Of a stretch of DNA of 64,000 nt, positions 25,867 to 33,074 are shown in pieces (positions within the stretch are counted from its first letter, which is position 1; each line of letters opens with the position of its first letter). Under the pieces are notes generated by a model that was not told the DNA's origin, ran no database searches, and worked only from the letters and a program-made list of their open reading frames with translations. The position numbers and the translations under genes were made by a program. Source of the stretch: Faecalibacterium duncaniae (lineage in GTDB: Bacteria > Bacillota > Clostridia > Oscillospirales > Ruminococcaceae); assembly GCF_010509575.1 (NCBI RefSeq), contig NZ_CP048437.1, forward strand, positions 3,038,001 through 3,102,000, read 5' to 3'.

Positions 25867-26106
25867 TTACATCATTCCGCCGGGCCGCCAGCCGGTGCAG
25901 TAGCGGGCGTAATCGCGGTCGGCCTGTTTGACGTAAAGGAGGAACTGTTCCCTGCCTTCCTTGTCCGTGACCTGACGGACTTTGGTGGGCAGGCTCTGGC
26001 GCTGGAGCAGCTCCAGCTCATCGTTGAGCTCCTCCTCGGTATCAAAAGCATCCAGCTTGGTCCAGTGGGTGGCAAAGAGCCAGATGTTTGCAAGGGTGTT
26101 ATTCAT
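25867..26106 (-). CDS. 79-residue protein at the jetD position of the SMC operon, unknown function
   Basis: Not recognised. The product MNNTLANIWLFATHWTKLDA... has 79 residues: an aromatic N-terminus, an acidic predicted helix (FDTEEELNDELELLQRQS), a basic middle (TKVRQVTDKEGREQF) and a C-terminus with RYCTGWRPGGMM. No membrane segment or signal peptide. ATG 26106 follows AAAGGAG and overlaps the end of the SMC gene by 8 bases, so it is translated with the operon. In Wadjet operons the next gene is the JetD nuclease; this protein is far too small and has no toprim-like motif. It may be a subunit or regulator of the complex. Confidence 0.7.
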   Translation of the reverse strand: MNNTLANIWLFATHWTKLDAFDTEEELNDELELLQRQSLPTKVRQVTDKEGREQFLLYVKQADRDYARYCTGWRPGGMM

Positions 26107-29100
26107 ATTCAGTCTCCTTTTCCGGAGCATCGGCACGGATGCCGGCCCGGTAGAACGGCGCAATGGCGTTGGCATCGCCGTGGCGCACGATGGAATAGGT
26201 AATGTCGCAGTAGGGCTGGATGGCCGTGCTCTTTTCCACGGTGGAGATGAGCAGCACCTGCAGCTGCAGGCGGCGGAACAGCTCCATCATGGGGCGGATG
26301 CGGTCACTGGTCATCTTGCTGAAGGCCTCGTCCAGTAGGACAAGGCGGATGCTGTTCTCGCTCTTCTGGTAGATCTGCAGCAGGCTGGCGCAGATGGCCA
26401 CATAGAAGGGAGCCTGATTCTCGCCGCCGGAGGAATCGCGGCTGACGCGGGAAAGATAGGCCTGCTGGCCCGAGACGGTGTTGGTCACCTTGATGTCATA
26501 GTCCAGATAGGTGCGGTAGTCCACATAATCCGAGAGGGTGGCACCGGAGGTGGTGCGGCCCTCCTGCCGGGCCCGGGTGTTCTCGTCCACATCGGCCATG
26601 ATCTTTTCCATCAGCGCGTCCACCTGCCGCTCGTAGACGGGGTCAGCGGTGGCGGCAAGGTTGTCCAGCGAGTCGCCATCGGTCATCTGCTGGTTGCCCT
26701 TGTCCACAATGACCTGATAGAAGGCGGCCAGCTGGGGGTCACGGCTGGGCTCCAGCTCAAAGCGGTAGACTTCCTCGCCGTAGGTCAGCTGCTCCATCAC
26801 CTTGTTCAGCTCCCGGAACTGGCGGCGGGCGTTGAAGATATCATCCTTCATCCGGAAGAGGATATCCTTGCGGAAGCGATCCTTGCAGTCCCGCTGTGCC
26901 TGCTCCAGCCGGGCGGCGTAGCGTTCCAGATCAATGCGGACAAGGCTGTCGTGCTGGGCGCGGTACTGCTCCACCCCGGCCAGACCCAGCGGATAATCGC
27001 AGACGTAGTGCTCGTTGTAATCCCTCTGGGCGGGTTCCAGCGTGGAAGTGAGATACGCTCGCAGGGCATCGTCCAGCCTGGTCTGTGCCTTTTCGGCAGT
27101 CTGTGCGGCGGCACGGGCCGTACGCCCGCCCGTCATCAGGCCCTTTTTGCGCTCCTGTGCCAGAGGCTCCAGCAGCGGGTGCTGTGCAAAGAATGCCTCT
27201 GCCGCCGCCCTGCTCTGTGCAGCGGTCTCCACCGCCTTACCCTGCTCTGCCTCGCAGGATGCGATCTGCTTTTCGCAGACGCGGATATCGCCGCCCACCT
27301 GCTCCACGGCCTTGCGGGCAGTCTCCCATGCGGCTTCCCGGGCTTCTTCCTCGCGGTAGAGCTGCTGCAGCATGGGGTTCTCGCGGCAGTCCGCCAGCTT
27401 CTGCTCCTGCGCGGCGTAGTCGGCACGGGCGGCATCCAGCGCGGCCCGGCTGGCCCAGAGTTCGGCCAGCTGTTCCAGCGCATGGCCCCGCAGGACGTTC
27501 TGGTACTGGTCGTAGGCAGATTTCAGGGTCTTTTCGGTCTGGGCGGCTTCGCGGCAGCGGTCGGCCTGGGCGGCAAGCTGTGCTTCCAGCGCTTCGGCAC
27601 GCTCCCTGCGGGCATCCAGCCCGATATAGCGCTGGGGCCTGCGCAGGCGTTCCAGCCGGAAGGGATGGTGGCGCAGCAGGTCCCGGGTGGCGCTGTCGGG
27701 GAAATGCTCCAGCGTGTCGGGGGTGTCGCAGCAGACGATGCGGCGCAGGATGGTGTCCGCATACTGTGCGGCCAGCGGGTTTTCGCTGGTGACCTGGGCG
27801 GCAAGGCTGTCGGCGGGGGCCGTCTCTGCATGGCGGTCCGCCTTGCGGATGCCCGGGGTATCCAGCAGGCTGATGGGTCCCACCCGGTCACCCAGCGCCA
27901 CAAAGGCGCTCTTGGCGGCGGCGTAGTGGGCAGGCGGCACAAGGATATCAAACCGGCGGTCACCCAGGCAGGCTTCCACACAGTCCTGCCAGCTCTCATC
28001 AGCCACAGTCAGCAGTTCACAGAAGATCTTTGCATCCGCCGTCATGCCGCGGCTTTTCAGCTCAGCGTTCACGGCATCCCGCACTTTGGTGGCGGCATCG
28101 CCGTGGGGGTAGACCCACTTGCCGCCGGACACGGCGTTCAGCTCGGCCCGCAGGCCCTCCTGCTCTTTTGCCAGATCCGCCGAAGCCTGCCGGGCAGCAA
28201 AATACTGCTCCTCCAGCGGCTTTTCGATGCAGGCCAGCGCCTCGGTCAGGGCGGGGAGATGTTCCGCCGTCAGGCGCTGGGGCCAGAGCTCCTTCTCCAC
28301 CGCAAAGCCGCTGCGGTTCAGCTGGGTCAGCAGGCCGGTGATGGTATCCGCAGTCGCTTCCAGACTATTCCTTGTCCGGGCCGCTGCATCCAGCGCGCTC
28401 TTTTTCCGGGCCAGCTCCTCGGTCAGGGCATCCAGCGCCCGGCCCACGCCGCTGTCACCGGCCGCACCGTGGGCCGCCAGATAGGCCCGGCGGGCTTCGG
28501 CTTCGGCGTTCTTGGCGGCCTCGTATTTTGCGTTCAGGTCGGCCAGCTGGCGGCGGCCTGCATCCAAATGGCTCTGCCAGGAGGCATCCTCACCGGCATC
28601 CGCTTCGGCGCGGGCCAGCAGGGCCGCACCCCGGTTGACAAGGGCATCCGTTTCTTTGGCAGCAGCTTCCCGGCCATACGCCACGATCTGTTCCAGCGCG
28701 GCGGCACGGGTCTGGGCCTCGGCCAGAACGGCGTGGAGGTTTTCCAGCTCCACCCGGTCGCCCTGCAGCGCTTCCAGATCCAGTTCAGGCTGGGGCAGGA
28801 TGTACTGGTACAGGAACTCCCGGAAGTTGGGGATTTCGTCCATGCTGGTACCCATCTGGAACACTTCGTTGAACTTTTTGCCCAGCGGGCTGGAGGCGCG
28901 GCCAATGCCCAGGGCACGGCAGATGCGGTCCCGGGCCTCGCTGGGGCTGCGGGTGTAGGACAGGCGGCCCACAGCGGGCTTGAAGTCCTCCTTGGCGCTG
29001 GGGGCACCGGTGCGCGGATCAAGGAAGGGCAGCTTTTCCAGCGTGATGCCGTCCTCGGAGATGTACCAGGTCTGATCGCCGGGGTGAAGCTCCTGCATGG

Positions 29101-29437
29101 GGCCCTCGGATTCCACCCGGACAGCGATGACAAAGTTTGTCCGCTTGACGGTATCCCAGAACTCGGCTCCGATATACGCCACTGTGCGGCCTGGGCGGCG
29201 GTAGGCGTTCTCGCCGCGCTGCTTGGCGTGGACAGAGCCCTGCAGGGTGCGGCCGCTCTTTTTATTGCCCAGGGCATTGAAATTGCGGTTGGTGGTCAGG
29301 CAGTAGCGGATGGCATCCAGAATGGTGGTCTTGCCCACCGCGTTGACACCGATCATATAAGTCAGACGGGCACAATCGAAGGTGACATTTTCAAAGTTGT
29401 GCCAGTTGATGAGCTTCAGGCGCTTTAATTCGATCAT
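26099..29437 (-). CDS. jetC: SMC-type ATPase of a Wadjet/MksBEF complex (JetC/MksB-like)
   Basis: DNA-loop-forming ATPase subunit of 1112 residues. Walker A is GVNAVGKT at 30-37 in an N-terminal SMC/SbcC-like head starting MIELKRLKLINWHNF. Long coiled coils rich in Ala, Glu and Arg run from about 225 to 900 with a less regular hinge region near 440-600. The C-terminal head has the ABC signature SSGGENQ near 1002 and Walker B LVLLDEAFSKM near 1032. All ATPase motifs look intact. It starts with a 4-base overlap of jetB and probably works with JetA and JetB to extrude or compact DNA; in Wadjet systems the complex restricts plasmids. Confidence 0.9.
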   Translation of the reverse strand: MIELKRLKLINWHNFENVTFDCARLTYMIGVNAVGKTTILDAIRYCLTTNRNFNALGNKKSGRTLQGSVHAKQRGENAYRRPGRTVAYIGAEFWDTVKRTNFVIAVRVESEGPMQELHPGDQTWYISEDGITLEKLPFLDPRTGAPSAKEDFKPAVGRLSYTRSPSEARDRICRALGIGRASSPLGKKFNEVFQMGTSMDEIPNFREFLYQYILPQPELDLEALQGDRVELENLHAVLAEAQTRAAALEQIVAYGREAAAKETDALVNRGAALLARAEADAGEDASWQSHLDAGRRQLADLNAKYEAAKNAEAEARRAYLAAHGAAGDSGVGRALDALTEELARKKSALDAAARTRNSLEATADTITGLLTQLNRSGFAVEKELWPQRLTAEHLPALTEALACIEKPLEEQYFAARQASADLAKEQEGLRAELNAVSGGKWVYPHGDAATKVRDAVNAELKSRGMTADAKIFCELLTVADESWQDCVEACLGDRRFDILVPPAHYAAAKSAFVALGDRVGPISLLDTPGIRKADRHAETAPADSLAAQVTSENPLAAQYADTILRRIVCCDTPDTLEHFPDSATRDLLRHHPFRLERLRRPQRYIGLDARRERAEALEAQLAAQADRCREAAQTEKTLKSAYDQYQNVLRGHALEQLAELWASRAALDAARADYAAQEQKLADCRENPMLQQLYREEEAREAAWETARKAVEQVGGDIRVCEKQIASCEAEQGKAVETAAQSRAAAEAFFAQHPLLEPLAQERKKGLMTGGRTARAAAQTAEKAQTRLDDALRAYLTSTLEPAQRDYNEHYVCDYPLGLAGVEQYRAQHDSLVRIDLERYAARLEQAQRDCKDRFRKDILFRMKDDIFNARRQFRELNKVMEQLTYGEEVYRFELEPSRDPQLAAFYQVIVDKGNQQMTDGDSLDNLAATADPVYERQVDALMEKIMADVDENTRARQEGRTTSGATLSDYVDYRTYLDYDIKVTNTVSGQQAYLSRVSRDSSGGENQAPFYVAICASLLQIYQKSENSIRLVLLDEAFSKMTSDRIRPMMELFRRLQLQVLLISTVEKSTAIQPYCDITYSIVRHGDANAIAPFYRAGIRADAPEKETEYE

Positions 29438-30039
29438 TCTTCTTCCTCCCCGCTGGCATCTCCGTCAGGCCGCTCGTAGAGGGCCAGTTCTTCCCGGGTG
29501 CGGCTGCTCTCGGCGGCGGCATCGGCAAGGTCTGCATCCGGCAGGGCCAGCAGCACAGTGGGAAACACCTCGATGCGGCTGTCCAGACCGGTCAGCCGCC
29601 CCACCGGGCGGGCCAGATTATACCTGCGCAGGGTGCGCATGAGCTCCTCCAGCGTGCGCTGATCCAGCCGCCGGGGCAGGTTCATCTTCTGCAGCTCTGT
29701 CTGCACCTCTTCCACCGTGACCAGCACCTGATCGGCGCTGGCGGCAAGGCTCTCCCGCTTTTGCAGGTAGAGCAGGCGGAGCACCAGCAGCAGGATGCTC
29801 TCGTATTTCAGCAGCCGGGCCTGGCTGCCCTCATGCTCGTTGACCAGCGCCGCCGCCTGCAGCGGCGCCGGGTAAAGCGTTACCGCATAGCCCAGCGGCG
29901 CGAACACGGCCCGCACCTCGGGCAGATGATCCTGCACATAGAGATATTTTGCCCGCTGATCCTCCACGCCGCCCAGCACAAAGCAGTGGTTGAGCAGATA
30001 GTTTGCGGTCTCTTCCAGCATTTTATTCGGTTCGGCCAT
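29434..30039 (-). CDS. jetB: DUF4194 protein, JetB/MksE-like subunit
   Basis: 201 residues, the usual length of the kleisin-associated winged-helix subunit (DUF4194) of MksBEF and Wadjet complexes. The sequence has the early helix ETANYLLNHCFVLGG, a beta-containing middle (VRAVFAPLGYAVTLYP), the family stretch KYESILLLVLRLLYLQKRE, a winged-helix part (LDQRTLEELMRTLRRYNLAR) and an acidic tail. It overlaps the end of jetA by 17 bases and the start of jetC by 4, so the three are tightly coupled. Family assignment is by eye from pattern and context. Confidence 0.82.
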   Translation of the reverse strand: MAEPNKMLEETANYLLNHCFVLGGVEDQRAKYLYVQDHLPEVRAVFAPLGYAVTLYPAPLQAAALVNEHEGSQARLLKYESILLLVLRLLYLQKRESLAASADQVLVTVEEVQTELQKMNLPRRLDQRTLEELMRTLRRYNLARPVGRLTGLDSRIEVFPTVLLALPDADLADAAAESSRTREELALYERPDGDASGEEEE

Positions 30040-31456
30040 GGTCAGCGTCCTCCCTGCGGGGTGTCAGAATAAACTCTTCAAACCGGAAGCCGCCCCGTTC
30101 GACCCAGTTTCCGGTAAGGGTGATATCGTAAGCCCGGCGCGGCGACTGCGAGTAGGTGTGCAGGCCGATGATGCGGGCAAAATCGCGGGGGTATTCCTCC
30201 GCCAGTGTGGAGGCAGCCACCGCACTGCGGGCGGCAAGGGCCTGTTTTGCCAGCAGGCCCACGTTCTCCTCAGTCACGGCCATCCGGGCGTAGTCCAGCA
30301 GCAGCTGCTGTTCTTTGCGCAGCTGCTCCTCGTCCAGCCCGGCCTGCCGCACCGGAGCCAGCGGCGTTTCGCTGCGGGGCGCGGCGGGCGGGTAGAGGGG
30401 CTTTGCCCCGAACACCGCCGCCGGGTAGAGGTGCAGGTGCTTTGCCACCGGGCCGTCATCCGGCGCGAACAGCTGATCGGGCGTTTTGATCTCCTCGGCA
30501 TAACGGCGGAGCAGGGCGGTGACACTGCCCTGCGAGGAGCGGTCGCTCAGCAGCAGGAACTGTGCCCGCTGCACGGCCCGCTTGCGGTAGCGGATGTGGC
30601 TCTGGTCGATCTGGCACATCAGGGTGCTCATCTCTTCCAGCGAATCCCGCAGTTTCTGGATGAGGGCACGCACGGCAGGGGCTGCCTCGCCGGGGGCACA
30701 GCGCTCCACCCGGGCGTAATCCAGCGCCAGCCGGGGCAGGTGTTCTGCCTCGCAGTCGTCCAGCTCCTCTTCCAGATAAGCGCGGTAATTGAACAGGTTA
30801 TCGCTGGTCTTGAAGCGGTGGTAAGCGGCGGCCACCACCTTTTCCTCGTACTGGTCGAAGAGCTCCAGCACCTCCTGCGGGGTACGGTTGCGGGTAAGCC
30901 GGTCGATATAATGCCCGATGGATGCGTTCAGCGCCCGCAGGGACTTGTTCAGTGCTTCCAGATCGGAGGCCACCTCCCGCAGAACATTCTCATAGGGGCT
31001 CTTTTCCTCCCCGATGTTCTGCAGCAGCTGCCATGCCTTGTACAGCTTGCCGGTGTAGGTGACAACACGCGGGTTCAGGATCTCTTCCAGCGCTTCCAGC
31101 AGAGGGGCCACCTCAGGCACAAAGGCAAGGGCAGGCTCTTCCTCATAGCTGCCGGGCTGCTCTTCCAGCCAGCCGGTGCGGCGCAGGCGGAGCAGAAAGC
31201 CCAACGCAAGGGTATGGGGATCCCGGGTGGGCTGTTCGGCTTCGTCGCCCGCGTCATCGGCATCCAGTGCCAGCGGCTTTGCCAGCGCCGCAAAGTAATC
31301 CTCGGCCCGGCTCACCGCTTCTGCCCGGGAGATGGAGTAATCCGCCGTGTGGCGGCACTCCTCCCACAGCAGGAGCAGCAGCTCCGCATAAAACGCCCGG
31401 TTGGGCCCCGCCAGCGGGCGGAACAGCCGCGGGCTGACCAGTTCAAACAGCTGCAT
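30023..31456 (-). CDS. jetA: JetA/MksF-like kleisin of the Wadjet-type operon
   Basis: 477 residues, first gene of the operon. It starts MQLFELVSPRLFRPLAGPNR, resembling the Wadjet JetA (DUF5716) proteins, with a winged-helix-like N-terminus (AFYAELLLLLWEEC), a long helical middle including NVLREVASDLEALNKSLRAL and RNRTPQEVLELFDQYEEKVV, and a C-terminal domain. As kleisin it should bridge the two heads of the SMC protein. ATG 31456 was preferred over an upstream TTG at 31480 because AAAGG lies at good spacing. An extended -10 (TGGTACAAT) is present at 31493-31501. Confidence 0.8.
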   Translation of the reverse strand: MQLFELVSPRLFRPLAGPNRAFYAELLLLLWEECRHTADYSISRAEAVSRAEDYFAALAKPLALDADDAGDEAEQPTRDPHTLALGFLLRLRRTGWLEEQPGSYEEEPALAFVPEVAPLLEALEEILNPRVVTYTGKLYKAWQLLQNIGEEKSPYENVLREVASDLEALNKSLRALNASIGHYIDRLTRNRTPQEVLELFDQYEEKVVAAAYHRFKTSDNLFNYRAYLEEELDDCEAEHLPRLALDYARVERCAPGEAAPAVRALIQKLRDSLEEMSTLMCQIDQSHIRYRKRAVQRAQFLLLSDRSSQGSVTALLRRYAEEIKTPDQLFAPDDGPVAKHLHLYPAAVFGAKPLYPPAAPRSETPLAPVRQAGLDEEQLRKEQQLLLDYARMAVTEENVGLLAKQALAARSAVAASTLAEEYPRDFARIIGLHTYSQSPRRAYDITLTGNWVERGGFRFEEFILTPRREDADHGRTE

Positions 31457-31492: not shown

Positions 31493-31501
31493 ATTGTACC
31501 A
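31493..31501 (-). promoter_or_regulatory. Possible extended -10 promoter of the jetABC operon
   Basis: TGGTACAAT on the minus strand, 37 bases before the jetA start. The -35 region is poor. Confidence 0.45.
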
Positions 31502-31530
31502 CAATCAGAAGGATTTTGCCACAAATACAA

Positions 31531-31591: not shown

Positions 31592-32092
31592 TCAGGCATT
31601 TGTATCAATAGCCACCGAGATAGCCATGTAGGTCTGACCATTCACAGCTTTGACAACAACGCCAACCTGTGTCCATTTCGTGCTCTGTGCAATATTCACG
31701 TTTCCAAGATTGCCGCCTTCGGCAATTTTCTGAACGAACTTATTCAGCTTTGTGCCATCATAGTCAAATGTCGTCACAAATGTAGCTGCACACTTACCAT
31801 CTTTGGGGCCATCAATTTTGAACCAAACCTTAGACGAATAGCCAAACAGATTCAGCGAGAAGTTCAAATCTCCATTTGCTGCCTCATCAATACTTTGGCT
31901 TGCAATCGCTCTGCACTGTGCGTTGTTTTCCAGTTTCTTTCCCTCTGGGCGATTTGCATTGATTGCACTCATTACCTGATTTTCCGCCTGAGCCTCGGGG
32001 CTCTGGGCGGTATCGCCGCCGCAGGCGGTGAACAGAACAAGTACCATGGTCGCCGCCAGAATCAAAGCGGCCAGTTTTTTCAGCATTTTCAT
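31592..32092 (-). CDS. Lipoprotein with CAP-like domain
   Basis: Cell-surface lipoprotein of 166 residues; the signal peptide MKMLKKLAALILAATMVLVL leads to a lipobox ending TAC. The mature part has a low-complexity start and a domain in which AINANRPEGKKLENNAQCRA and the final STKWTQVGVVVKAVNGQTY are reminiscent of the CAP/SCP fold (compare the usual WTxVGVGV ending), but the catalytic His and Glu of CAP proteins are not evident. ATG 32092 follows GGAGG. Monocistronic with promoter at 32176. Role unknown. Confidence 0.7.
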   Translation of the reverse strand: MKMLKKLAALILAATMVLVLFTACGGDTAQSPEAQAENQVMSAINANRPEGKKLENNAQCRAIASQSIDEAANGDLNFSLNLFGYSSKVWFKIDGPKDGKCAATFVTTFDYDGTKLNKFVQKIAEGGNLGNVNIAQSTKWTQVGVVVKAVNGQTYMAISVAIDTNA

Positions 32093-32175
32093 GTCGGGAC
32101 CTCCAGTCGTTTTGTTGTGTTTTTCATAATATGCAGGGTGCCTTTTCATTTTGAAACAGGACCCTTTCTGGCTTT

Positions 32176-32405: not shown

Positions 32406-33074
32406 ATGCAGCATGGTTCCCTGCGCGCTCCGGTGCGCGTTTTCATGGCAGCAGTTCTGCTGTGCCTGAGCTTTCTGGCCGCGCCAAAGGCTGCGGCGGC
32501 ACAATTGCAGGATGTAAACGGCATCATGCTGCTGTCCTTCGACAGCCAGCAGATCGTCTCCATCGGCAACCAGACCTCGGGCCGGTGCAGCTGGTACGCC
32601 CTGCGCTACGCCCGCACCATTCTGGATGGCAAGCCCTGCTCAGGCAGCGGGATGTGGTCGAACGGCGCGGTATGGTCTGCCGCCGGGTACTACGCTTACA
32701 GCGGCTCCCTTTCCGGCTGCCTTTCCCGCCTGTATGAAGAGCTGCAGGCCGGGCGGCCCGTCATCGTACATCTGAAAAACACCGCTGTCAGCGGCGTGTC
32801 CAAGCACACCAACCGCGTGACGAGCTATGAATACCACCTCTCCGGCTCCGGCTGGAAAGAGGTCAATTACCCCCACATCGCCACCAGCAGCACCTACGGA
32901 CACTGGGTGTGCGTGGTGGGCATCTCCCCCACGGCAGACCCCGAAAACCTGCGGGAGAGCGATTTCTATGCGCTGGACCCCGCGCGGGTCAGCGTGAACG
33001 GTACACTGGCCGTAACAAAGCTTTTGGATGGCACCATCTGGACTGATAACTCTCCCTTAAAAGTCGCAGCCTGA
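32406..33074 (+). CDS. Secreted C39-like cysteine peptidase-like protein
   Basis: 222 residues with a Sec signal peptide (RVFMAAVLLCLSFLAAPKA, cleavage near AAA-AQ). The mature domain has the papain-like order of a C39-type peptidase: Cys in GRCSWYALRYARTILDG, His in YGHWVCVVGIS about 130 residues later, and an Asp near YALDPARV. It probably acts outside the cell on peptides or the wall; no wall-binding domain is seen. ATG 32406 follows AAGGAG; the frame extends upstream to 32151 but that part lacks coding character. Confidence 0.72.
   Translation: MQHGSLRAPVRVFMAAVLLCLSFLAAPKAAAAQLQDVNGIMLLSFDSQQIVSIGNQTSGRCSWYALRYARTILDGKPCSGSGMWSNGAVWSAAGYYAYSGSLSGCLSRLYEELQAGRPVIVHLKNTAVSGVSKHTNRVTSYEYHLSGSGWKEVNYPHIATSSTYGHWVCVVGISPTADPENLRESDFYALDPARVSVNGTLAVTKLLDGTIWTDNSPLKVAA

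Follow-up and report, generated by a model that had tools for sequence, protein, structure and literature searches.

A Wadjet-group jetABC operon without jetD in Faecalibacterium: a probable nuclease-free condensin derived from a defence system

The 64,000-nucleotide stretch of Faecalibacterium duncaniae DNA analysed here (the window; bases 3038001-3102000 of the single-contig genome NZ_CP048437.1, 3102523 bases, labelled G000) carries on its minus strand, from 31456 to 26099, the jetA, jetB and jetC genes of a Wadjet-group complex, each gene overlapping the next, and no jetD. This operon probably encodes a domesticated condensin, devoid of nuclease, that acts on the chromosome as MksBEF and MukBEF do; we infer the chromosomal role from the analogy with these complexes and from the conserved place of the operon, its vertical descent and its SMC-like constraint. 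According to passages of two papers on Wadjet systems, the plasmid is extruded by JetABC, a dimeric motor, and completed extrusion activates cutting by JetD (PMC12647877; PMC10586767); since JetD is described there as cutting only after extrusion, JetABC without JetD should extrude without cutting.

The original prediction of overlapping jetA, jetB and jetC genes with intact ATPase motifs was borne out by Pfam and PADLOC matches (Table 1) and by the JetC motifs GVNAVGKTT, SSGGENQ and LVLLDEAF, which start at residues 30, 1002 and 1032 and which we take to be Walker A, signature and Walker B, respectively. JetB also matched the MksE model PF21980 (E 2.2e-4), at 22.1 bits, under the 27-bit cut-off. 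Neither the JetC nor the JetA of the window gave a phmmer match to solved structures at E 0.001.

Among 31 Faecalibacterium genomes, 15 encode a window-type JetC (67-100% identity) and 8 contain a match to JetD_C (PF09983). The lack of a JetD with the operon, also part of the prediction, was confirmed: no PF09983 match was found at the window-type JetABC locus in any of the 15 genomes (in G011, only 309 bases follow JetC before the contig end). The PF09983 model does find the JetD that accompanies the JetC subtype of the window, in G027 (E 1.9e-13) and in G546 (E 2.2e-21). The model of the N-terminal part of JetD, PF11795, matched none of the 31 genomes, yet it misses known JetDs too and is therefore uninformative. 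Eleven of the 15 JetABC genomes had no JetD_C match anywhere, 10 of them being rated at least 97% complete, and the supply of JetD in trans was therefore rejected as a general mechanism. No other nuclease was recognised by eye among the open reading frames (ORFs) neighbouring the operon, and family searches, made on only two of these neighbours, gave no Pfam match. The 'IFDR' motif of JetB (PMC10586767) was tried as a test of JetD contact and abandoned: by eye, it was not visible in the JetB N-termini inspected, those of JetD-bearing loci included.

In the four other JetABC genomes (G000, G012, G022 and G026), JetD is always encoded elsewhere, beside a second JetC that is 26-38% identical to that of the window in aligned pieces; this second type of JetC was found in 7 of the 31 genomes. 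In G000, the sole JetD_C match (E 1.8e-16, C1:313462-313926) belongs to a second JetABCD operon, itself complete; assuming a circular contig, some 350 kb separate this match from the window operon. An unlinked jetD serving the window operon would have contradicted the original prediction; the only one in this genome has a JetABC of its own, the JetC of which is 26-36% identical to the window JetC in aligned pieces. The GC content at third codon positions is 0.52-0.60 in the second operon, against 0.79-0.80 in the window JetABC and 0.81 in the SMC gene. The codon usage of the second JetABCD looks foreign, and the occurrence of this type of JetC in 7 genomes might be that of a mobile defence system.

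The window JetABC looks vertically inherited, as judged from its conserved place, a codon usage like that of the host and JetC distances parallel to those of SMC. SMC scored over the model cut-off in 30 of the 31 genomes (that of G023 is split across contigs) and ScpA was present in all 31, so that JetABC is not a substitute for a missing SMC. In an SMC tree of 30 genomes (G023 excluded), built by a quick method with support from the Shimodaira-Hasegawa-like approximate likelihood ratio test (SH-aLRT), all JetABC genomes except G011 form a single clade of 14 (SH-aLRT 100), and the JetC tree recovers the same subgroups. Pairwise SMC and JetC distances were correlated with r 0.992 over the 15 genomes and 0.977 when G011 was omitted, and none of 2000 permutations gave as high a value in either case; without G011, the rate of change of JetC is 0.9 times that of SMC. 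Identities to G000 for SMC and JetC were 88 and 91% in G016, 82 and 83% in G006, and 64 and 67% in G011. G027 is off this pattern, with an SMC 65% and a JetC 46% identical to those of G000, as expected of a separately acquired JetABCD. Ratios of nonsynonymous to synonymous substitution rates (dN/dS), determined for 12 pairs, ranged from 0.027 to 0.184 for JetC and from 0.027 to 0.183 for SMC. No stop was present in the JetC matches of the 15 genomes or in the JetA matches of 14 examined, G030 not being among the 14.

The place of the operon is likewise conserved. All 14 clade genomes have a gene labelled by eye as MATE-like within 2.5 kb downstream (adjoining in 10, one gene away in 4, broken in G030), and 13 of the 14 have a gene labelled by eye as pyrophosphatase/acylphosphatase within about 4 kb on the opposite side. 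In six of the eight single-contig JetABC genomes, those numbered from dnaA, 30-50 kb separate the operon from dnaA, the contigs being taken as circular and the first ORF of the contig, which contains a DnaA motif, being presumed to be dnaA. A scan of contigs with JetC reached only Faecalibacterium (10 loci, most at 83-91% identity). G011, a 79%-complete metagenome-assembled genome (MAG) with a long branch, is placed in the SMC tree among genomes devoid of JetABC, but its operon, too, is followed by the small gene seen after jetC in the window (see below); for this reason we favour, without being sure of it, the presence of JetABC in the ancestor of a clade of 26 genomes, followed by at least two losses.

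The occurrence of JetD was then considered across Clostridia. A sample of the order comprised 395 genomes, with JetA in 15 genomes and 16 loci; a sample of the class comprised 393 genomes, with JetA over cut-off in 33 genomes and 35 loci, four sub-cut-off rows having been dropped. With three loci common to both samples and the pseudogene of G727 left out, 47 loci were obtained. JetD is adjacent in 30 of them (in G198 by position only, in G689 in pieces), and a complete JetC is not followed by JetD in 8 (the window, G007, G233, G342, G450, G478 on C1, G629 and G671). The other 9 are unjudgeable or broken through contig ends, fragments or an insertion in jetC (G347, G377, G423, G437, G500, G506, G561, G650 and G690); in G506 (L217), jetC is interrupted by other ORFs, and the JetD in pieces of G689 is at L216.

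A tree of 37 Clostridia JetC proteins, of which 15 come from the window clade, was built by a quick method and contains long branches. The rows without JetD form five separate groups in it, and the starred branches force at least five changes. The sister of the window clade is the pair formed by G027, with JetD, and G423, in which the contig ends; G342, without JetD, branches next, and then G546, with JetD. Because the sister JetABC of G027 still carries JetD, loss of jetD is the likeliest event in the line of the window: most simply, the window operon would derive from a JetABCD operon by such a loss, with a further loss in G342. Apart from the window, complete JetABC loci without JetD were seen at L119 (G233), L203 (G450), L204 (G478), L195 (G629) and L120 (G342), and no common gene was seen at the JetD position among these five. 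As a control of detection, 250 genomes of another family were searched, in which JetD adjoins JetC in 23 of 24 loci related to that of G671. The exception is G671 itself, in which an ORF of the MYG1 type (PF03690, E 2.4e-37; L225:6026-7258) overlaps jetC by 26 bases at the JetD position; in relatives of G671 with a JetC 65-67% identical, JetD occupies that position, and in this single case one nuclease was possibly swapped for another.

A 79-residue ORF follows jetC in the window, and the predicted 8-base overlap between the two proved exact. Searches of Pfam, PADLOC and NCBIfam with this ORF gave no match, PHROGs hits reached E 0.08 at best, and no solved structure matched at E 1. It is a real gene, as homologues 48-100% identical are encoded in 18 of 61 genomes searched (its own included), all of them Faecalibacterium; G017 carries it twice (L058 and L069), in copies 61% and 56% identical to that of the window. 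Its dN/dS was 0.12-0.34 in the five pairs tested, which denotes purifying selection. The predicted structure of the protein is a small ferredoxin-like domain, for which PII/DUF2007-type domains are the nearest known counterparts, and no nuclease fold was present among the structural matches listed. Assignment to DUF2007 itself (PF09413) was rejected: the model matched in none of the 31 genus genomes, it was absent from the hits of the 18 members at E up to 5, and the fold is only loosely compatible.

Whether the small gene always follows jetC was a check suggested with the original prediction; it does so in only 7 of the 15 JetABC genomes. Among the 31 genomes, 7 have the small gene together with window-type JetABC, 8 JetABC only, 11 the small gene only and 5 neither, which amounts to no positive association (Fisher odds ratio 0.40, p 0.29, a test that ignores relatedness). 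The 11 genomes without window-type JetABC keep the small gene in the corresponding neighbourhood. In the 8 JetABC genomes that lack it, no remnant better than E 0.2 was seen among the relaxed-search matches shown (control E 5e-60).

From these distributions we infer that the small gene stands on its own at the level of the genus and that its 79-residue product has a role independent of JetABC. This protein is most likely not a replacement DNA cutter, and it is very unlikely to be a new effector, a regulator or a fourth subunit of JetABC. The small ORF does start within 8 bases of the jetC end in all seven genomes having both, distant G011 included (JetC 67%), with junctions that are overlaps of 8, 8, 4, 8, 4 and 4 bases and one 4-base gap, and it is under selection; an operon partnership with JetABC is possible in this subset of seven. 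However, such a subunit would be missing from 8 of the 15 JetABC genomes and present in 11 genomes without the window-type complex, and a nuclease-like fold is absent from the structural matches listed. The proposal that a new effector or fourth subunit had taken the place of JetD was thus not upheld, again in view of these distributions and of the ferredoxin-like fold, and the other half of the same prediction, a housekeeping variant of MksBEF, is the better supported. There is a slim chance that the main Faecalibacterium clade ancestrally possessed an operon of four genes, jetABC and the small one, the ferredoxin-like protein being a condensin accessory factor that would regulate JetABC where both exist and would work with SMC-ScpAB in the 11 species without JetABC; if true, the protein would represent a novel type of SMC regulator, having emerged with the loss of JetD.

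A domesticated condensin probably arose as follows. A Wadjet-group complex made of the JetC ATPase, the JetA kleisin and the JetB KITE protein most likely lost JetD when the main Faecalibacterium clade began to diversify or earlier still, and JetABC would since have been retained alongside SMC-ScpAB as a second condensin, one without nuclease. It would still assemble as a dimeric loop extruder translocating on DNA, completion of extrusion would no longer trigger cutting, and the complex would act in compaction or segregation of the chromosome, like the MksBEF of Pseudomonas aeruginosa PAO1 and like MukBEF.

The window operon resembles the JetABCD (MksBEFG) systems of the PADLOC type 1 models in its JetA, JetB and JetC families, in gene order and in its overlapping genes; it differs from them by the lack of the JetD Toprim nuclease, by its conserved chromosomal place and by its vertical inheritance. 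The JetABCD operons of the MAG G027 (JARHYC010000009.1) and of G546 share with it the JetC subtype (46% and 40% identity, respectively) and the gene order, but both keep jetD directly after jetC. With MksBEF of PAO1 and with MukBEF it shares a three-gene SMC-kleisin-KITE set without nuclease; unlike these, the set of the window is clostridial and its JetA belongs to family PF18982, and any kinship of its JetD loss to the Pseudomonas line lies outside our tree, which is limited to Clostridia. JetD-less complexes of the Wadjet group are already described in print: a passage of PMC7617805 gives MukBEF and 'several other Wadjet group members' as lacking JetD. Passages of PMC7485682 and PMC10586767 report that MksBEF coexists with SMC-ScpAB, and the former that it works alongside SMC in PAO1. 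MksBEF appears not to promote the juxtaposition of chromosome arms, according to a passage of PMC10197239, so that a chromosomal role need not be arm alignment. No published description of the Faecalibacterium case was found among open-licence PubMed Central papers.

It is unlikely that the operon still serves in defence, with JetABC sensing circular DNA and then either recruiting an unlinked nuclease, which could be the JetD of another Wadjet system or an unrecognised enzyme, or silencing plasmids by extrusion without cutting. JetA, JetB and JetC are clearly proteins of the Wadjet family and 4 of the 15 genomes encode a JetD elsewhere, but in those four it sits beside its own second JetC, the 11 others (10 of them at least 97% complete) have no JetD_C match, and the operon differs from a mobile defence operon in its conserved place, its host-like codon usage and a divergence that resembles that of SMC. 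That it is a decaying, drifting Wadjet remnant left after JetD loss is very improbable: the jetA frameshift of G030 and the 11 related genomes that have the small gene without window-type JetABC would agree with decay, but JetC dN/dS is 0.03-0.18 in the 12 pairs, JetC and JetA matches are free of stops in the genomes examined, and an SMC identity to G011 of only 64% denotes a long time without decay.

Several points nevertheless count against a domesticated condensin. In the four JetABC genomes holding the JetD of another system, JetD may be borrowed in trans, and a divergent nuclease unlike PF09983, encoded elsewhere, would escape detection. G342, which lies between two JetD-bearing relatives, is also without JetD, so that the gains and losses of JetD are reconstructed from few rows. 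The jetA gene is frameshifted in G030 (L079), through assembly error or decay. Finally, the 11 genomes keeping the small gene lost or never gained JetABC, which is consequently not needed genus-wide.

Table 1. Location of the features discussed (window positions unless a contig is given).
Feature	Position	Strand	Remarks
jetA (kleisin; MksF-like)	30023..31456	-	477 aa, ATG start; PF18982 E 1.6e-80, PADLOC JetA1 811 bits
jetB (KITE; MksE-like, DUF4194)	29434..30039	-	201 aa, overlaps jetA; PF13835 E 6e-17, PADLOC JetB1 224 bits
jetC (SMC ATPase; MksB-like)	26099..29437	-	1112 aa, 4-base overlap with jetB; PADLOC JetC1 1935 bits, SbcC_Walker_B E 4.1e-22
Small 79-aa ORF	25867..26106	-	overlaps jetC by exactly 8 bases; ferredoxin-like fold predicted; not considered a Wadjet subunit
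Sigma-70-like promoter match	31493..31522	-	37 bases 5' of the jetA ATG; consensus match only
Second JetABCD operon	G000 C1:307360-313940 (locus L070, 3363-9939)		complete, separate; whole operon read

Directly 5' of jetA, an ORF of 185 residues that by eye is lipoprotein-like (31592-32149, minus strand) gave no Pfam match, and diverged relatives of it (24-40% identity) recur close to jetA in sister genomes. A gene for a probable secreted protein lies at 32406-33074 on the plus strand, and genes of this type adjoin the small gene or lie close to JetABC in most Faecalibacterium loci inspected; 'C39-like' is only a working label for it. The labels pyrophosphatase, acylphosphatase, MATE, Fec, polyamine and 'C39-like' are all by-eye readings, the Pfam search having been made for the last one only, with no match.

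The operon would thus provide, in a dominant human gut commensal, a natural case of a defence machine that apparently lost its weapon and became a vertically inherited complex conserved like SMC. As the genus includes both a distant member with the JetD form and species without the complex, the proposed path from Wadjet to MksBEF/MukBEF is testable within one genus. More generally, 'Wadjet' called from JetABC alone can mislead on function.

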